From an uncultured Litoreibacter sp. (GTDB taxonomy: Bacteria; Pseudomonadota; Alphaproteobacteria; Rhodobacterales; Rhodobacteraceae), in assembly GCA_947494435.1 (NCBI GenBank), contig CANLUY010000003.1, forward strand, positions 29,209-93,208: DNA of 64,000 nucleotides. Direction: 5' to 3'. Positions 5,589 through 45,280 of this stretch are shown here, in pieces. The position numbers and the translations under genes were made by a program. Each line of letters begins with the position of its first letter. Within the stretch, counting starts at the first letter, position 1. The notes under the pieces were generated by a model. It did not search any database, was not told the DNA's origin, and saw nothing but the letters and a program-made list of their open reading frames with translations.

Positions 5589-5991
5589 GCACATACGCCT
5601 GAAGGCGGAAGCGCTTCGGCCCCAAGGTTCCTGCCCTATTGCTTTCAACTAACACAACCGTCTCATAGTCATTCAACAAATGCGCAACTCGTGCCGATTG
5701 GCTGGTCAGCTCCAGGCTTGGCCTACACAGATTGCCGCTCACTTGGGCCGTGGTGACCAAAGCGCTGCACAAGGTCATTTTCTTGAGGAGGTCAGCGATC
5801 GATCTCAAAGACGTAACGGCTGGTCTGCGATCTCAGCGAAAGCGCTGGTCCGTCAGCATGATTTGTCAGATCACCACCGGTCTACCCCCTGGTTTCTCTT
5901 AGATGGGGATGAAGGGAACGCCGAACGCATGTACCTTCAGCTCGTCTATCGTGATCCCCGCCTCCGGCGCAGATCAAGAGATCCCTTTGGA

Positions 5992-6092
5992 GCTTCAACA
6001 AGCAGAAAAACGGTTTCCGGAGGACCCTCCGTTTTTCAGCCTGCACACGTCCCGCGCACCCTTCCTGCTTATCCCCATCGAAACAAGGAGAT
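5992..6092 (+). promoter_or_regulatory. Structured 5' leader, copy 1 (hairpin AAAAACGG...CCGTTTTT at 6006-6036)
   Basis: Shares GCTTCnnCAAGCAGAAAnACGGTTTCC...GGACCCTCCG...CATCGAAACAAGGAGAT with the region upstream of 8897. Confidence 0.6.
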
Positions 6093-6098
6093 AGACCA

Positions 6099-6419
6099 AT
6101 GGCAATCGATGGAAAAATCACGCGCACTGACGACGACGCATTCACTGGCTGGATCGCATCACTCACCTTCGACGTAGACATCGTTCTTACGAAGAACCCT
6201 CACAAGAAAAAGGAAACGCACCCAGACTTTGAGATCACTACTCGCACCCCTCGTAACCGCCTGATCCGTATCGGATCGGCCTGGGAGCAGACCAGCCAAG
6301 CGGGCAACGACTACCTCTCGCTGGCCTTTGATGTGAACGGCACCAAAGTTCGCGTCAACGCCCTGCAGGGCGAAGGTAGTGAAGATGGTGAATATCGCCT
6401 GGTTCCGCTGGCAGGCTAA
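6099..6419 (+). CDS. DUF736 family protein
   Basis: MAIDGKITRTDDDAFTGWIASLTFDVDIVLTKN...; DUF736 is common on alphaproteobacterial conjugative plasmids. Confidence 0.82.
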   Translation: MAIDGKITRTDDDAFTGWIASLTFDVDIVLTKNPHKKKETHPDFEITTRTPRNRLIRIGSAWEQTSQAGNDYLSLAFDVNGTKVRVNALQGEGSEDGEYRLVPLAG

Positions 6420-6435
6420 CGGCAAAGCAAGGGGC

Positions 6436-6456
6436 GGCGAAAGTCGCCCCTGCATC
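6436..6456 (+). terminator. Hairpin GGGGCGGC-GAAA-GTCGCCCC after the DUF736 gene
   Basis: 8-bp stem with one G-U pair and a GAAA loop. Confidence 0.5.
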
Positions 6457-6725
6457 CGATACAGAGCGGTAGGTTCATCAAGCCGCAAGTCATCCCGACA
6501 ATTTCCGCCTTCAATCACCGACGAGGGCACCCCCACAGTTCAAATCGTGCTGCCAAGATGCAGCGGTTGTCTAACAGCGGTGCTTTGTCTCTTCATGAGA
6601 CGCCCAAGTTGTGTGCAGAGTAAATAAGACTGGCAGTTTTTTGTGCTTGCAAGTCACGCATAGCTGCAATGCAGCATTATCATTTGTTGCAGTGCAGCAT
6701 TTGGCGTAGGTTGGGACCAGAAATT

Positions 6726-6892
6726 GATGTCAGCTCTTTCTCCTCCCAGAGAACCTGACATCCCAGCAATGGACTTTCATCCTCCTCCCGAGAGGCCATT
6801 GCGTCCAGAATTGGTTGTTGCACCTCCTCCCGCGGCGACCGTTTCACAAACGAGCGGTGTCCTCCCTCCCGAGGCACCGCTCTTTTGCTTTT
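6726..6892 (+). ncRNA. Tandem array of four hairpins with CUCCUCCC/CCUCCCUCCC loops (cuckoo/CcsR-like sRNAs), ending in a T-tract
   Basis: Stems GATGTCAG/CTGACATC (6726-6762), GCAATGG/CCATTGC (6766-6802), GGTTG/CGACC (6813-6840), GAGCGGTG/CACCGCTC (6852-6882) followed by TTTTGCTTTT; each loop carries the anti-SD motif. Confidence 0.78.
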
Positions 6893-6919
6893 AATGGGCA
6901 CCTTTTGGGAGCCTACACC

Positions 6920-7327
6920 TCAGCACCAAGAGGATCGCTCTCCGCCTGAATACCGTCGCGCGAGATCCTCACGGATGAGAATATCGCCGACATTCTGGCC
7001 ATCGACAAAAAGTGTGCCGAGGCCACGCCCGTATTTGTCGCGGCTCGGCTGTGCGGCGAAGCTGATCTCTGTTGCAGTACGCACCAGGGCGCGCATCCGC
7101 GCTGTCGCCTGATCTCCGCGCAGCTTTTCGCTTTCGCATTCGGCGCGGTAAGTTTCCGGTGTATCAAATCCGGTCAATCGGTAGCGTTCGTCGTCTACAT
7201 CAATGGTATCGCCGTCGATGACATAAATCTGGCTTGCGGAGAGTATCTCGGGCTGCGGCCGTTCGCTCAGCCAGTAGATCCCACCAAGCACAAGGACGAA
7301 CAGCACGATGACATTCTGCGCTCTCAA
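6920..7327 (-). CDS. Thermonuclease (SNase-like) family protein, membrane-anchored N-terminus
   Basis: IYVIDGDTIDVDDERYRLTGFDTPETYRAECESEKLRGDQA...RDKYGRGLGTLFVDGQNVGDILIREDLAR. Confidence 0.88.
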   Translation of the reverse strand: MRAQNVIVLFVLVLGGIYWLSERPQPEILSASQIYVIDGDTIDVDDERYRLTGFDTPETYRAECESEKLRGDQATARMRALVRTATEISFAAQPSRDKYGRGLGTLFVDGQNVGDILIREDLARRYSGGERSSWC

Positions 7328-8010
7328 GCTGATGTCTCAATCGGGTCTGAGCCATGCTCGGTGCCCTTCCTTACAATCTGCATCTCTTCAGCTGGAAACG
7401 GCTCCAGCAACGCAAGTGCGTCGTCAGTGCTGCCATGCAGCCACTGATCGTAGTATTCAGGTCGCAATATGACGGGCATCCGTTCCGGATGGACTGTTTC
7501 TGTCAGGGCGTTCCCCGTTGTTGTCAGAAACGTGTGGGTTTCACAGCTCTCGGGCCCATCTTTTGTCTCATATTTCGATGTTTGCCAAAGGCCTGCAAAA
7601 GCAAAGGGGGGTCGCGGCTCATCGCCCTTGAGCGCAAACCAATGAAAGACCTGTGGATTGCCGCCCGGGGGCCACTCACAATACGAGCTGGCAGGCACAA
7701 GGCAGCGTCTGTCTTTGAATGCGAACTTCCAGAACCCCGACGTGGCTACCTTGTCTGATCGTGCGTTGTTCCAGACACCTGGTGAGATGATATTTCCCGT
7801 CTTCTTTGATTTCTTGGTGCCCCGGAATCCCCAGCTTAAGCTGACCAGTTCGCGCGCGCCGTCTTCATCAAGGCGAACGACCGGAGCGTCATACTTGGGA
7901 TAGATCGCGCTGAGCGGTTCCGCATTTCCGAGCCGATCTTGCAACGGTTGGACTTTGAACAGCTGTCGCATGGCCTCGACCGCGGTTGTATTTGAGTACA
8001 AGTTACACAT
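7324..8010 (-). CDS. SOS response-associated peptidase (SRAP / YedK-HMCES family)
   Basis: Start re-set to MCNLYSNT (catalytic Cys2); LVPASSYCEWP, HPERMPVIL motifs of SRAP. Confidence 0.9.
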   Translation of the reverse strand: MCNLYSNTTAVEAMRQLFKVQPLQDRLGNAEPLSAIYPKYDAPVVRLDEDGARELVSLSWGFRGTKKSKKTGNIISPGVWNNARSDKVATSGFWKFAFKDRRCLVPASSYCEWPPGGNPQVFHWFALKGDEPRPPFAFAGLWQTSKYETKDGPESCETHTFLTTTGNALTETVHPERMPVILRPEYYDQWLHGSTDDALALLEPFPAEEMQIVRKGTEHGSDPIETSA

Positions 8011-8293
8011 CGATGTCAGTCCCGTTGTCCGGTGTATTTTGGAAATTTGGCCGATAATACTGAATTTTGCACATTTCGAACAGCATGGCATTGGGATCAG
8101 CTGCCTTTGGGCACACTTCCCTGGCAATTACAGTTTTCGCGTCAGGTGCGTAGCTGTCCCAGCCAACGAGGTCGCAATACCGCTTGTGTGAGTAGACACC
8201 GATGCGCTGACAGTCCCAGCAAACCAACACGATGGTCTTTTGCGGCAAGTCGCAAATACGAGGACAGGCTTTGATTTTGGGGTTCGGCGACAT
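8003..8293 (-). CDS. Hypothetical Cys-containing protein, first gene of the SOS-box operon
   Basis: MSPNPKIKACPRICDLPQKTIVLVCWDCQRIGVYSHKRYCDLVGWDSYAPD...; overlaps the SRAP start by 8 nt. Confidence 0.6.
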   Translation of the reverse strand: MSPNPKIKACPRICDLPQKTIVLVCWDCQRIGVYSHKRYCDLVGWDSYAPDAKTVIAREVCPKAADPNAMLFEMCKIQYYRPNFQNTPDNGTDIDV

Positions 8294-8303
8294 TCGCAAT
8301 AAA

Positions 8304-8318
8304 GAACATAATAAGAAC
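8304..8318 (-). promoter_or_regulatory. SOS (LexA) box GAAC-ATAATAA-GAAC
   Basis: Matches GAACN7GAAC, directly upstream of the 8003-8293 / SRAP / SNase operon. Confidence 0.85.
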
Positions 8319-8780
8319 ATTCGTTCAAATGGTGTTTGGCCCTTCAGCTGAGCTGATCAGGCTCGAGGCTGCGCCCGAAGCCAGCTTTGCTGTCTTCGCC
8401 CATCCGGGTCACGATCCTTAGGGCATGTCCGCTTGCAGCGGGCCGAACAGGCGTTGCCATCTTTTCCATCGGATTGGAACAGCACTGCTTCTGCCCTTTT
8501 TTGGCGGGTCATGTCGTGGACAGCCAGCACTTGCACCGGCTGTGGCCAGGCCCATCGAACGCAGTGAATAATCGGCAATGGGTTGACTGAAGAGGTGCGG
8601 TCCGTTGGATCGTTGCGATGTAATAGCTGCACCGATCACGCGAGCTGCTGTGTCTTTGCCGTTTTGAAATAGTGACAGGAAGATCCGGTGAGGCTGATTT
8701 GGTCTTCGCCGTTTCGAGCCGCCTTGTTTCTTGTCGATGAATGGGTTGCAGATCTCGGCCGATCACGTTCCCTGCGCTGC

Positions 8781-8892
8781 GCTTCGGCAAGCAGAAATAC
8801 GGTTTCCACCCAAGGGCGGACCCTCCGCATTTCCACTTGCGCGATCCTCCTTAACCGATCCGCTGAGTAACCCTCATCGAAACAAGGAGATC
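8781..8892 (+). promoter_or_regulatory. Structured 5' leader, copy 2 (hairpin GAAATACGG...CCGCATTTC)
   Basis: Near-identical blocks to 5992-6092, including CATCGAAACAAGGAGAT at the RBS. Confidence 0.6.
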
Positions 8893-8896
8893 GAAA

Positions 8897-17114: not shown

Positions 17115-17687
17115 ATGCCTAAAGGCCGAATTCTAACACCAAACGAGCGCTTGGCGATAGTGCGTGAGGCGGCGAAAGGTGCTGACGTGAAAGGGCTTGC
17201 CCTGCGATTTGGGGTAACGCGGCGAACGATCCACTACACAATCAAGCGCGAAAAAGATCGGCGTCGGGACACTGGGATAAGAACTGCCGCCGCAAGCGTA
17301 ACGGTGACACCGGACGAGATGGATGCGTTTGATCTGGCGATTTCAAAACATGGATTTGGCAGTCGGGCAGACGCATTGCGGGCGCTGATGCAGGCTACGA
17401 ATGGCATTTTTGTCCCCGATGATCACCTGTCTGGCGAGCTGGCCGGGTTCCGTGCTGCCCTGAATCGTGTTGGTAACAACGTCACCCAGATTGCGAGGCG
17501 GATGAACGAAGCAAAGAAGCGCGGAATGCCTGCGCCGTGGTCGGACAGGCAATACGAGGAAATCAGAGCGCTCGCAGGTCTGATTTTGGAGATGGGGGAT
17601 CAAGCTGATTTGCTCATCAAGCGGCGCAAGGATGCCATGACGGTGACGGTGAACGAGGTGTTGAGGGAGTTTGCTCTTGGCACGTAA
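17115..17687 (+). CDS. mobC: MobC/VirD1-like mobilisation accessory protein with N-terminal HTH
   Basis: HTH (VKGLALRFGVTRRTIHYTIK) followed by MobC-like GFRAALNRVGNNVTQIARRMNEAKKRG. Confidence 0.78.
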   Translation: MPKGRILTPNERLAIVREAAKGADVKGLALRFGVTRRTIHYTIKREKDRRRDTGIRTAAASVTVTPDEMDAFDLAISKHGFGSRADALRALMQATNGIFVPDDHLSGELAGFRAALNRVGNNVTQIARRMNEAKKRGMPAPWSDRQYEEIRALAGLILEMGDQADLLIKRRKDAMTVTVNEVLREFALGT

Positions 17688-20457
17688 TAGCGCCGTCGAG
17701 GCTGTCACAGGTGAGGTGTTCCGTGAGGGATGGGACCGTGTTCGCGGTTCTATGCAAGGTCTCAACAGCAAGAAGCATGGACAACTCTATCGCGCTGCAC
17801 GTGGTCATCGATCGGCGGTGTTCAAGGCCATCAAGAACGGTGGGACGCACACGAAGGGCCAGCTCAGCAATCAGCTTTCCTATATCACGCGCGATAATAA
17901 GCTGGCGCACTTCGTGGATAGTCGCGGGACCTTTGATGGGAAAACCAAGTTCGAAGACAAAGACATCAAAAAGATCACGGACCGGTTTGCCGAGCGTTGG
18001 GACAGTGGATTTCGCCCAAAGATGGGCAATACCACGCACATGCTCATGTCATTCCCGAAAGGTACGAAGTCGGAGGACGTGAGAGACATCGCATCTGACG
18101 TATGCGAGCGGTTCTTTGAAACTGATGAAGGGCACTTCGACTATGTGATTGCCGTTCACAAGGATCGGGATCACCCGCACGCTCATATCGTCTTGAATAG
18201 GCGGTCCCAGGAGGGAGAGTTCTTCTATCTGGGTCGTGATCATCGATTCAATTACGACGATTTCCGGCTCGCGATGGTGGAAGAGGCCGAGAAATATGGC
18301 GTGAAGTTGGAAGCGACGCGCCGGGTTGATCGCGGCGTTGTTCACTATCCGCCTAGGACGCGAGAAATCTATGCGGTCAAGCAAGACGCTGAAAATGGTG
18401 TGGTGCGTGAACCCGAGCAGAGAGAGCGGGTAGGGCGCGATCTTGCACGGACGTTGGCTGAAATTGCCAGCACGAGACTTGTTTATCACTCGCTCGCTGC
18501 GGAGGCCTCAGCCGACAGCCGAGAAGAAATATCCGAGGCCCTTCTGAAAGCGGCAGAGCTTTTGGGCAAGGGAACAACCATTCAGCATGATGGAGACATT
18601 TACATGGGAGCCGCCGAGGACTTTGACGATCTGAAGGGGCAGTATGCCGATACTGTTGAGGAAGTGCAGGCCCGCATCGCACGGCTTCCTGAAGGTGAAC
18701 GGGCGGCCAATGAACGAAGGCTGAACGACATCCAAGTCGGCCTCCGTCGGATGCAGCCGCTTGGTCTGCGATCTGTGACGCTTGAGCAAAAGCCTTCAGA
18801 GGGCGGTATTTATTCTGAGACGAATATCAACAGCGAACTTGTTGGGCGATTGGAGGATGGAAGCACGCGCGCCCAGATTGACAACGCTTTGCGAGGGACC
18901 GGGATCAGCGCTGATACCGTCGTCAACCGCATCGCGACCGGCGCACCAAATGCGGCGTTAGAGCGTCAATGGATTGCTGACGATCTTGCAAAAGTTGCCG
19001 AGGCACAGGGTTTAAACCTGGAGCGCAAGGACGATCTTGAGGTTGCACGAGAGCGCTTGAACCAAGTGCATGTAGAGTTGGGCACGGCCCTTGAGCGGGC
19101 AGAGGTGCTGCGCGATGACGGCGTGATTGAAGAAACTCGCGAAATTCGCTTCCACTTTGATCAGGAGCGTCTGGACGATACCACACGGGCGGTGCGCCAA
19201 GAATTGAGAGGGCAGGGGGTCAATGAAGCGCAGCTTGACGCCCGTGTCGTTGAGATTGAAAACCGGGCGTTTGACCGGGTTGAAGCAGAGCAGCGGGACT
19301 ATCTCGCAACGCGGCCTGAAATTCTTTCTGATCCAGGGGCTGTCTACCGCACAGACGAAGAGGGTAGGGGGCGGATCACAGATCGGGAGCTAGCGGATCG
19401 GCTTGATCGGGAGATTGACATCATCCTTGACCGTTCGCCTGCCAATCAGAGCATTTCCGAGGCCGTCGCGTCCGATTTCAAGGACCGCTACCCCGACATG
19501 CCGGATCACGTTGCACGAGGCTTGGGCGATACCTACGAGACGAGCTTCCGTTTGAATAATGAGCAGGAGTTGCGCGAGGCAGAGCTTGAAGCCGCTGATG
19601 TTGAGACAGCACGAGAAGCTGCGCTTGAAGCGAACCGGTTCGACAGCGGTATCGCGAAGACGGAAGAGGATGGAATTTCCGCCGCAGAGCGCCGTGCGCT
19701 GGTCACAGAGATTGAGGCCAACGTAAGAGAGGGCGCAAACGACGATGACCGGCCTTACGCTGACGACCGGTTTGAGCAACTGGTGAGAGAGCGCGACCGG
19801 CTGGAAGCCAATGGAGCCAGCTTGCAACAACGCGTAACTCTGGCGACGGAGTTTACCCAACTTTCTCTTGCCCGTCAGAACGATGAGCTTAGTCCCGAAG
19901 AAGCGCGGCGAGCCGATGCGATCTTGCGTGACACTGCCGATAAGTATGGCAGGCAGATGCTCGACGGCCTTCAACGTGAAGATACGCGCGAATTTATGTC
20001 GATACATGATGAAGGGTATTTCAGCCAAGACGAGAAAGCTGACGAGTTTGAGATAGAACGACGCAGAGACTATAGGCTTGCCATACAACCCTACCAGACA
20101 AAGCAGATTGAAAACCCAGAAATCCGGCGTGTGATTGAGCATGAGATGTCCGACGATGCTTCGCCGTCGCTGGCAACGGACGAACAGCGTCTTAGCTATC
20201 GCGAGCAGGTTGAAAATGAGCTTGATGACGAGCAAATTGAGCGGTTGCAGGAAGGTGACAGCGACGCTTTGGAGAACCTGTCTGACGATAGGCTAGACCG
20301 TCTCTACGTTGCGAAAGCCTATCTGCAATCGGATGCAGCAACGGCGAACTCTGAAGCTTATCGTGAGGTCGTGGAAGAGATCGCCGAAGAGCAGTATGAG
20401 TTGCAACGAGACCGGCTGGTCGACTCTGAACGCGAAGGAGGGCCGGTCCATGGGTAA
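17671..20457 (+). CDS. virD2: VirD2-type relaxase/mobilisation nuclease (928 aa)
   Basis: SYITRDNK, MLMSFPKGT, YVIAVHKDRDHPHAHIVLNRR three-His motif; long charged C-terminal tail. Confidence 0.9.
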   Translation: MLLARNSAVEAVTGEVFREGWDRVRGSMQGLNSKKHGQLYRAARGHRSAVFKAIKNGGTHTKGQLSNQLSYITRDNKLAHFVDSRGTFDGKTKFEDKDIKKITDRFAERWDSGFRPKMGNTTHMLMSFPKGTKSEDVRDIASDVCERFFETDEGHFDYVIAVHKDRDHPHAHIVLNRRSQEGEFFYLGRDHRFNYDDFRLAMVEEAEKYGVKLEATRRVDRGVVHYPPRTREIYAVKQDAENGVVREPEQRERVGRDLARTLAEIASTRLVYHSLAAEASADSREEISEALLKAAELLGKGTTIQHDGDIYMGAAEDFDDLKGQYADTVEEVQARIARLPEGERAANERRLNDIQVGLRRMQPLGLRSVTLEQKPSEGGIYSETNINSELVGRLEDGSTRAQIDNALRGTGISADTVVNRIATGAPNAALERQWIADDLAKVAEAQGLNLERKDDLEVARERLNQVHVELGTALERAEVLRDDGVIEETREIRFHFDQERLDDTTRAVRQELRGQGVNEAQLDARVVEIENRAFDRVEAEQRDYLATRPEILSDPGAVYRTDEEGRGRITDRELADRLDREIDIILDRSPANQSISEAVASDFKDRYPDMPDHVARGLGDTYETSFRLNNEQELREAELEAADVETAREAALEANRFDSGIAKTEEDGISAAERRALVTEIEANVREGANDDDRPYADDRFEQLVRERDRLEANGASLQQRVTLATEFTQLSLARQNDELSPEEARRADAILRDTADKYGRQMLDGLQREDTREFMSIHDEGYFSQDEKADEFEIERRRDYRLAIQPYQTKQIENPEIRRVIEHEMSDDASPSLATDEQRLSYREQVENELDDEQIERLQEGDSDALENLSDDRLDRLYVAKAYLQSDAATANSEAYREVVEEIAEEQYELQRDRLVDSEREGGPVHG

Positions 20458-43591: not shown

Positions 43592-44818
43592 CTATCTCAC
43601 TTGGTTAACGACCAGCTCTGCGACGGCCTCTGATGTCGCCGCCGAAAGAGTCCACCCAAGATGGCCGTGCCCTGTGTTATAGAATACGCCGTCTTTTCGT
43701 CCTCTGCTTACCTTTGGCAGCATGTTTGGCATCATCGGCCGCAAACCTGCCCAAGGAACAGCATGTTCGGTTGAGACGTCCGGAAAGAAGGTTTCACACC
43801 ACTCTATCAAAGGCCGTATCCGGTCGTCTCGGATATCTCTGTTCATCCCATTGAACTCAGCTGTTCCAGCGATCCGGTAGCGGTTCAGACCTAAGCGGCT
43901 GGCAACAATCTTTGCTTTGTCGTCGAGCAGACTCACCCAAGGCGCGGCTTCCTGACTTTGATGATCGTCAAGATTGACCGTGATCGAATACCCTTTGACA
44001 GGGTAGACATTCACCCGATCCCCCAACTTCGAAGCGATGGATCGGCTTCCCACTCCAGCGCAGACGACAACAGCATCGAATTCTTCCGTGTTTTGATCAT
44101 CTTGGGTTTTCCAGGTGAGAACGCTCCCCTGCCCTGTATGATCGACGGCTGAGACCTCCGCATTGAAACAGAATTGCACGCCTTTGCGTGCGCAAGCAGA
44201 GGCTAGATTGCGCGTAAACAGGTGGATATCGCCGGAGAAATCACTTTCGGTGAAGATGCCTCCAATGACATCACACTTGATCGCCGGCTCGATTCCAGCA
44301 ACTTCTGATGGCGTCACCGGACGCCTGGTCAGTCCGCCTTTTGTAAGCAGGTCATTGACCCGTCGCGCGTGATCATACTCGCGCTGATCGCGATAGACAT
44401 GGAGGATGCCGCGATCTTCACAGTCAAATTCGAAGCCCTCCTGGTCAGCATAGCGTTTGAGATGCTCGCGAGCCGACAGCGCCAGTCTAACCGTCTCGAT
44501 AGTGTTAGGGATATATTGAGGAATGTTGCTAATGAACTCTGCCATCCAGGAGTATTTATGCCAGCTCGGTTTTGGGTTCACCAACAGAGGTGCACCTGGC
44601 TCAAACATCCATTTGATACCCTTCAGTACTGTTCCCCAATTAGTCCAGACTTCAGCATTTGACGCTGACAGCTGGCCGCCGTTAGCGAAAGATGTCTCCA
44701 TCGCTGCATAGCGATTGCGGTCAAAAACGGTGACGTTGAAGCCACGCTCCAACAGTGCATAGGCGGTCGTTACACCGGTGATCCCGGCTCCAATAATAGC
44801 TACTTCATTCATCTGCAC
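43592..44818 (-). CDS. dadA: D-amino-acid dehydrogenase (DadA-like FAD oxidoreductase)
   Basis: EVAIIGAGITGVTTAYALLERGFNVTVFDRNRYAAMETSFANGGQLS; HGHLGWTLSAATS. Confidence 0.9.
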   Translation of the reverse strand: MQMNEVAIIGAGITGVTTAYALLERGFNVTVFDRNRYAAMETSFANGGQLSASNAEVWTNWGTVLKGIKWMFEPGAPLLVNPKPSWHKYSWMAEFISNIPQYIPNTIETVRLALSAREHLKRYADQEGFEFDCEDRGILHVYRDQREYDHARRVNDLLTKGGLTRRPVTPSEVAGIEPAIKCDVIGGIFTESDFSGDIHLFTRNLASACARKGVQFCFNAEVSAVDHTGQGSVLTWKTQDDQNTEEFDAVVVCAGVGSRSIASKLGDRVNVYPVKGYSITVNLDDHQSQEAAPWVSLLDDKAKIVASRLGLNRYRIAGTAEFNGMNRDIRDDRIRPLIEWCETFFPDVSTEHAVPWAGLRPMMPNMLPKVSRGRKDGVFYNTGHGHLGWTLSAATSEAVAELVVNQVR

Positions 44819-44887: not shown

Positions 44888-45050
44888 GGTTCAGTGCCTC
44901 CTCTGTCCCTTTGCCTGAGATCGCTATCCCTTCGGCGGACGCATCATGCGCCTCTCTCCAGAGTTTTGCTGCAAAACGGTCCTTGAGCCTGAGAGTTTCC
45001 GAGGCGGTTGCTCCTTCGGCACCGGATGTCCGGTTCTCCCGTTCTGCAGA
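44888..45050 (-). promoter_or_regulatory. Tandem glycine riboswitch
   Basis: Minus strand: GGGAGAACC...GTGCCGAAGGAGCAACCGCC...AACTCTCAGGCTCAAGGACCG...CTCTGGAGAGA then GCCGAAGGGATAGCGATCTCAGGCAAAGGGACAGAGGAGGC: both gcvT-type aptamers. Confidence 0.93.
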
Positions 45051-45280
45051 GGCCGCGTTTCTAAAAGAAACCCGGGTTTGTTTCAATTCGATGAGGCAAT
45101 ACTTTCGACTTCAAGAACAAAAGCCCTGCCAGAGCTGGCGGAACCGCCGCATCAAAGGTGCGAGGACGGATCCGCCTCAATCGCTGGCGGGAGGAAACCA
45201 CATGCGAATGACATGAGTTTCGCCTCGAAGCGCACAACGTTCTTCCGATTTTTATCGTCCATGTTCCGATTTTCGGAAGT

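Follow-up and report, generated by a model that had tools for sequence, protein, structure and literature searches.

What does a run of four anti-SD hairpins do on a conjugative plasmid, and what would switch it on? The question is raised by positions 6726-6893 of the DNA stretch analysed here (64,000 nt, referred to as the window), which forms the end of the 93.2-kb contig C3 of an uncultured Litoreibacter sp. The contig encodes an RPA-type Rep, VirC1, a VirD2-like relaxase, VirD4, VirB components, ArdC, SRAP and a thermonuclease; the VirD2-like relaxase, VirD4, VirB and the RPA-type Rep support the conjugative plasmid location put forward in the original prediction. The hairpins lie between the gene of a DUF736 (PF05284) protein (6099..6419, + strand) and a convergent gene of the thermonuclease (SNase) family (6920..7327, - strand), and an ORF scan placed no ORF of at least 80 aa over them.

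Four stem-loops follow each other on the + strand (6726-6882), with CUCCUCCC in loops 1 to 3, CCUCCCUCCC in loop 4 and a terminator at the end. The coordinates, letters, four hairpins and loop motif of the prediction are borne out by the + strand sequence of 6726-6893. Hairpin 1 (6726..6762, z -4.6) has the stem 6726-6733/6755-6762 (GATGTCAG/CTGACATC) and carries CTCCTCCC in its loop at 6740-6747. The stem of hairpin 2 (6766..6802, z -3.5) is formed by 6766-6772/6796-6802 (GCAATGG/CCATTGC), and its loop contains CCTCCTCCC, with CTCCTCCC at 6782-6789. In hairpin 3 (6813..6840, z -4.3), the strands 6813-6821/6832-6840 (GGTTGTTGC/GCGGCGACC) pair with inclusion of G-U pairs around the loop ACCTCCTCCC, in which CTCCTCCC occupies 6824-6831; a stem had been predicted here and is present, but was given too short: it has 9 bp (GGUUGUUGC/GCGGCGACC), of which three are G-U. 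Hairpin 4 forms part of an intrinsic terminator (6852..6893, z -6.0), with the stem 6852-6859/6875-6882 (GAGCGGTG/CACCGCTC), the loop TCCTCCCTCCC (6860-6870) and the tail TTTTGCTTTT 3' of the stem. For hairpins 1 and 4, the folding prediction has CUCC partly paired within the loop. In the folding check suggested with the prediction, all 200 dinucleotide shuffles of each hairpin fold less well than the hairpin itself, and the same holds for the complete 194-nt stretch (-73.9 kcal/mol, z -5.25). On both strands of the 93,208-bp contig, CTCCTCCC occurs three times, always within the array (6740, 6782 and 6824).

The assignment to cuckoo (CcsR-like) RNAs is supported, with ar14 (RF02344) as the best model (6719-6847; 56.7 bits, E-value 7.7e-10; cmscan with an E-value threshold). 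The proposed covariance-model check thus gave a low E-value, but a score 2.1 bits short of the gathering score of 58.8, and a Rfam scan at the gathering threshold reported no family at the array. The copy on a sister plasmid described below scored 58.2 bits and the DUF1127-linked copy on the host chromosome 60.5 bits. The CcsR1 model (RF02791) reached 17.5 bits at the array, compared to a cut-off of 65.3; matches of Scr3202, ar7 and snoRNA/miRNA models were rejected with scores far under their cut-offs. As in ar14 RNAs, a CCUCCUCCC-type motif is present in successive hairpin loops with divergent stems, and the constancy of the loop beside differing stems, pointed out in the prediction, is the published hallmark of the ar14/cuckoo family, namely an ultraconserved aSD loop on strongly different stems (PMC10746234). 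The co-transcribed upstream DUF1127 gene of the CIN1 / ccaF1-ccsR locus is absent from contig C3; its absence, already noted in the prediction, extends over the whole 93-kb plasmid contig. Because of the hairpin structure, the ar14 score and the DUF1127-cuckoo locus on the host chromosome, the four hairpins are regarded as a cuckoo/ar14-type sRNA array without a plasmid DUF1127 gene. Judged by the ar14 match, the fold z-scores and the identity to the sister plasmid, the array spans 6719..6892 (+) and would yield a primary transcript of about 165-175 nt. It is closely related to cuckoo/ar14 RNAs and would work like them.

The best ar14 match of the host (60.5 bits) is located on the 1.48-Mb contig C2, directly 3' of the gene of a 68-aa DUF1127 protein. 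This is the canonical ccaF1-ccsR arrangement, as described in R. sphaeroides (PMC10253847). The host's four DUF1127 genes all belong to the large contigs C1/C2; plasmid contig C3 has none. The expectation that such arrays are chromosomal and near a DUF1127 gene holds for this second copy of the host, but not for the arrays on pSymA and on 19 Rhodobacterales plasmids found by blastn (see below). Closely spaced CTCCTCCC pairs are present in 249 of 298 family genomes (nearly all of different genera), a count that includes some chance pairs. One chromosomal array (L027, G201:C1:334949-335564), 3' of a DUF1127 gene, has expanded to 26 CTCCTCCC hairpin motifs, which lie in near-identical ~141-bp repeats. 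In G309 (L264, C22:11000-22000), two cuckoo arrays of two hairpins apiece stand in succession, each with its own operator-bearing promoter.

The best clue to the control of the array, absent from the original prediction, is a putative promoter with tandem operators of the PhaR type, PhaR being the regulator of carbon-storage granules. Operator 1 (6664..6674, +; CTGCAATGCAG) is a strict palindrome of the PhaR type, CTGCNNNGCAG; operator 2 (6687..6697, +; TTGCAGTGCAG) has one mismatch to it and overlaps the -35/spacer region. The PhaR site reported for R. sphaeroides is CTGCNNNGCAG (PMC12542648), and the palindromes expected at a promoter of the PhaR regulon are present here. In the sister plasmid, operator 2 differs solely by 6693 T>C, within the free N3. 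The promoter itself (6684..6712, +) would consist of the -35 box TTGTTG (6684-6689), a spacer of 17 nt and a weak -10 box TAGGTT (6707-6712), as judged from the sequence and from alignment to homologous promoters (CCTACAT/CTATCTT; L086/L262, L297-L301, L320-L323). When 6700-6715 was inspected by eye for an RpoHI/RpoHII promoter, no CCTACAT-like -10 was seen, while the chromosomal copy has one. The host encodes PhaR (L013:4042-4611, on G000:C2) and a phasin; phaP adjoins phaR, and the phaP promoter contains the same tandem palindromes as the array promoter. The promoter of the host's chromosomal DUF1127-cuckoo locus has one strict palindrome (CTGCATAGCAG) plus a second site with one mismatch. 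In the 3' UTR of the host phaP mRNA (L013:4700-5303; G000:C2 ~1223700-1224300), one TCCTCCTCCC hairpin precedes the terminator, i.e. a cuckoo-type loop within a PhaR-controlled mRNA.

The association of the palindrome with cuckoo loci extends over the family. A blastn search of 397 family genomes with 6640-6900 matched mainly the promoter stretch, which precedes cuckoo arrays in several other genera. With loci picked by their arrays alone and up to 600 nt upstream of the first motif considered, a strict palindrome was found at 18 of 29 chromosomal cuckoo loci (one per genus) and at 16 of 21 loci within the own genus (shuffles: 1.5% and 1.0%, respectively); among control upstream regions (300 nt) it was present in 10 of 354. 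In S. meliloti, PHB sequesters PhaR, which also represses the sRNA MmgR (PMC12542648). The ccaF1-ccsR operon of R. sphaeroides was described as RpoHI/RpoHII-driven, with PhaR unmentioned (PMC10253847), and about 40% of the family's cuckoo loci are without a strict palindrome; PhaR control may for these reasons be lineage-specific or auxiliary. A literature search retrieved no relevant paper on PhaR together with DUF1127.

Taken together, the array is probably a stand-alone, trans-acting cuckoo (ar14/CcsR-type) sRNA array with its own promoter, repressed by PhaR and released upon accumulation of storage polymer. Host RNA polymerase would initiate at about 6719, and host PhaR would occupy both operators and thereby block the promoter. 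As PHB/PHA granules build up, PhaR would be titrated off and transcription of the array would begin, together with that of the phasin gene and of the chromosomal DUF1127-cuckoo operon. The precursor might act as a multi-loop RNA, or host RNase E and chromosomal CcaF1-type DUF1127 proteins might cut it into single hairpins. The CCUCCUCCC loops would base-pair with GGAGG-type ribosome-binding sites of host mRNAs and lower their translation, so that the plasmid would supply its host with extra cuckoo RNA in an amount set by the storage state. Targets of cuckoo RNAs in characterised relatives are mRNAs of transport, C1 and carbon metabolism. Host mRNAs are more likely targets than plasmid genes, since the 8-nt complement GGGAGGAG was not found anywhere on the plasmid. 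Against this explanation stand the ar14 score below gathering and the weak -10 box.

The main rival, which we consider unlikely, is a sponge, a role already raised in the original prediction: the array would titrate binders of CU-rich loops (CcaF1-type DUF1127 proteins, Hfq) or compete with the chromosomal cuckoo RNAs for their targets, and would thus damp the host response. The loop is identical to that of the chromosomal array, the DUF1127 genes of the host are all off the plasmid, CcaF1 influences maturation and levels of CcsR in trans (PMC10253847), and a sponge acting on another aSD-bearing sRNA family is known from Caulobacter (PMC12559287). However, the PhaR-type operators common to the array and the chromosomal operon suggest supportive co-expression and not opposition, and a constant aSD matched to ribosome-binding sites would be needless for a simple protein sponge.

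It is very improbable that the hairpins merely serve the upstream DUF736 gene as terminator or 3' UTR, without any role in trans. The array does follow that gene on its strand, at 300 nt distance, and has a terminator at its end, and the phaP 3' UTR offers a one-hairpin parallel, but termination needs a single hairpin, the array has its own promoter-like region with operators, and elsewhere the cassette follows unrelated genes (a hypothetical gene before a strawberry-notch helicase gene; the VirB11-VirD4 interval). 

Arrays of this kind occur on other plasmids, too. With the array as blastn query, no full homologue was obtained from PLSDB or from 40 relatives because the stems diverge; homologous arrays were reached via the promoter and by pattern searches. 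The pattern asked for an array and, a short way off, half of operator 2, but not for operator 1, and a part of the stand-alone set was found in this way; most matches of a GCAGCAT-CTCCTCCC pattern were rejected as chance and left out. Stand-alone arrays are present in contigs of at least seven further genera. One of them, on a 71.6-kb contig of another genus encoding VirD4 and relaxase homologues (G368:C17), has the same promoter, is without DUF1127 and is located directly 3' of a DUF736 gene; such a gene is also found immediately upstream of the stand-alone array on pTPRO7. In several genera, the pattern search yielded more stand-alone arrays; their contigs measure 35-95 kb, apart from one 6.9-kb fragment, and most of the arrays have DUF6878/DUF6915 genes on one side and a strawberry-notch helicase gene on the other. 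Two stand-alone arrays from different genera (L297:9921, G189:C13, and L298:5642, G135:C25) are nearly identical including their surroundings, which suggests recent plasmid transfer between genera. A pattern scan of viral contigs gave 120 stretches, of which two had an operator-like site; both seem to be coding coincidences, and a phage-borne array is not claimed.

The search for the array on related plasmids, suggested with the original prediction, also led to complete plasmids. One genome has two stand-alone copies in its main contig, and blastn with one of these found 18 complete PLSDB plasmids (of Paracoccus, Phaeobacter, Ruegeria, Pseudosulfitobacter, Roseovarius, Sulfitobacter, Mameliella, Yoonia and an unnamed Paracoccaceae), to which another query added Salipiger pTPRO7. 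In these 19 named plasmids with the cassette, the match region carries no annotated feature. Direct reading confirmed the array in four of them, pP88_d (Phaeobacter), p3SUD7 (Sulfitobacter), pSMR4r-1 (Yoonia) and pTPRO7. Like that of the window, these arrays show the order operator, promoter, cuckoo array and terminator without DUF1127; unlike its four hairpins, they have two or three, on other stems and with other neighbours. The pSMR4r-1 array is located between the VirB11 neighbourhood and virD4. The three of these plasmids that were scanned (pP88_d, pTPRO7, pSMR4r-1) gave ar14 scores of 44.6-56.8 bits. In the loci read, operator 1 precedes the first motif at a distance of ~74-82 nt (with one mismatch in pSMR4r-1), and in the stretches examined around related stand-alone arrays no DUF1127 gene was found. 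A cassette of this putative promoter and an array, without DUF1127, recurs on at least four plasmid backbones.

As improbable as the 3' UTR reading is a neutral hitch-hiker, i.e. a decaying copy of a chromosomal array, functionless on the plasmid. Many related plasmids are devoid of the array, the -10 box is weak and the ar14 score slightly under the cut-off. Of the related plasmids scanned, 25 (14 relaxase-, SNase-, DUF736- or DUF3800-related and 11 DUF736 plasmids) had no array, so that it is not essential; on the same grounds the idea of a DUF736-linked module was rejected as too simple. pSymA, scanned along with the 14, does carry ar14. In contrast, the array is better conserved than its flanks, its changes spare the structure, and it has arisen independently on several backbones, where operators and terminators are intact.

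The sister plasmid, contig C5 of G432 (84.5 kb, uncultured Rhodobacteraceae), has the same backbone with different cargo (93.7% identity over 5705-19679, 89% over most of the T4SS region, ~90% in the Rep gene). Within the shared backbone, to which the array by this comparison belongs, it shows 98.3% identity compared to a median of 94.8% (172-nt windows), a value equalled by ~10% of windows. Of the three differences, one adjoins the loop-1 motif, one falls between the first two hairpins and one, at 6840, replaces G-C by G-U; all leave the stem pairing intact. Together with the high identity, this indicates selection on the array. Over ten stand-alone arrays, pairing in the two stems amounts to 99.5%, and in three pairs both partners have changed; these double-sided changes exceed those of 497 of 500 shuffles, 3 of 500 reaching as many, and with sliding partners pairing falls to 23-45%. 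The covariation looked for in the prediction is thus seen, with few events. G-U pairs are preserved on the + strand among the ten arrays.

That the hairpins act in conjugation as single-stranded DNA (a Frpo/ssi-like element of the leading region) and not as RNA is scarcely credible: the plasmid is conjugative and the array is situated, with ardC nearby, on what may be the leading side of the relaxase genes, but its position relative to transfer genes differs among plasmids, the + strand G-U pairs are preserved, and a chromosomal homologue and an intrinsic terminator exist. The leading region assumed earlier is accordingly a candidate location for this array but not a defining one, related arrays being located elsewhere (Rep/Par/strawberry-notch; VirB11-VirD4).

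Elsewhere in the window, a tandem glycine riboswitch (44901-45051, -), with scores of 60 and 40.1 bits, precedes the gene of a DAO-family FAD oxidoreductase (43592-44818); together they would form a plasmid-borne glycine-responsive operon. The cargo at 35494-62547 comprises carbohydrate and peptide ABC transporters, GH4 glycosidases, a galactose-1-phosphate uridylyltransferase, an epimerase and a tryptophan-halogenase-family gene, and has no DNA-level match in the sister plasmid.

Plasmid backbones are usually interpreted as genes for replication, transfer and defence, and as physiological trigger of cuckoo RNAs mainly stress is known. The presumed PhaR-repressed trans-acting array leads to a broader proposal, made tentatively: conjugative plasmids of marine Rhodobacterales might carry a dedicated, recurrently exchanged PhaR-operator cuckoo cassette, which would couple the plasmid to the carbon-storage sensor of the host and add anti-SD RNA to the chromosomal DUF1127-cuckoo operon, which in most genera would itself be controlled by PhaR, so far unnoticed. 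A non-coding, unannotated RNA recurring on plasmids of about ten genera suggests plasmid control of host translation by nutrient state, and the PhaR-type operators are a second candidate input to cuckoo RNAs, the state of PHB granules, on chromosomes and plasmids alike. Plasmid location per se is not new, because pSymA of S. meliloti carries two ar14 arrays (~90 bits each), without CTGCNNNGCAG operators. As far as the literature examined shows, two things are new, namely a class of stand-alone arrays in plasmid backbones of Rhodobacterales and PhaR-type operators at cuckoo loci of plasmids and chromosomes; an earlier mention of plasmid loci in the 2015 cuckoo family paper is possible.

Among known systems, MmgR and the alpha-r8 sRNAs as well as SisA-D of Caulobacter are likewise aSD-bearing alphaproteobacterial sRNAs, and MmgR is PhaR-repressed, but they are chromosomal members of another family, to which the array gave no reported match, with a single aSD 10-mer and not a CCUCCUCCC hairpin array. 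The ccaF1-ccsR1-4 operon of Rhodobacter sphaeroides (CcsR, RF02791; CIN1 locus) shares the loop motif, the four-member array and the terminator; unlike this operon, the window array is not preceded by a DUF1127 gene, has no recognisable RpoH-type -10 (CCTACAT), which the host chromosomal copy does have, and scores low with RF02791. NfeR1 of the alpha-r14 family has a sigma-70 promoter plus a conserved 29-nt element (PMC10746234). Compared to this family (RF02344; NfeR1 and siblings, Sinorhizobium), which has three hairpins, the window array has four and a score just below gathering, while the CCUCCUCCC loop is identical and the differing stems, the terminator and the occurrence on a plasmid (pSymA) are common to both.
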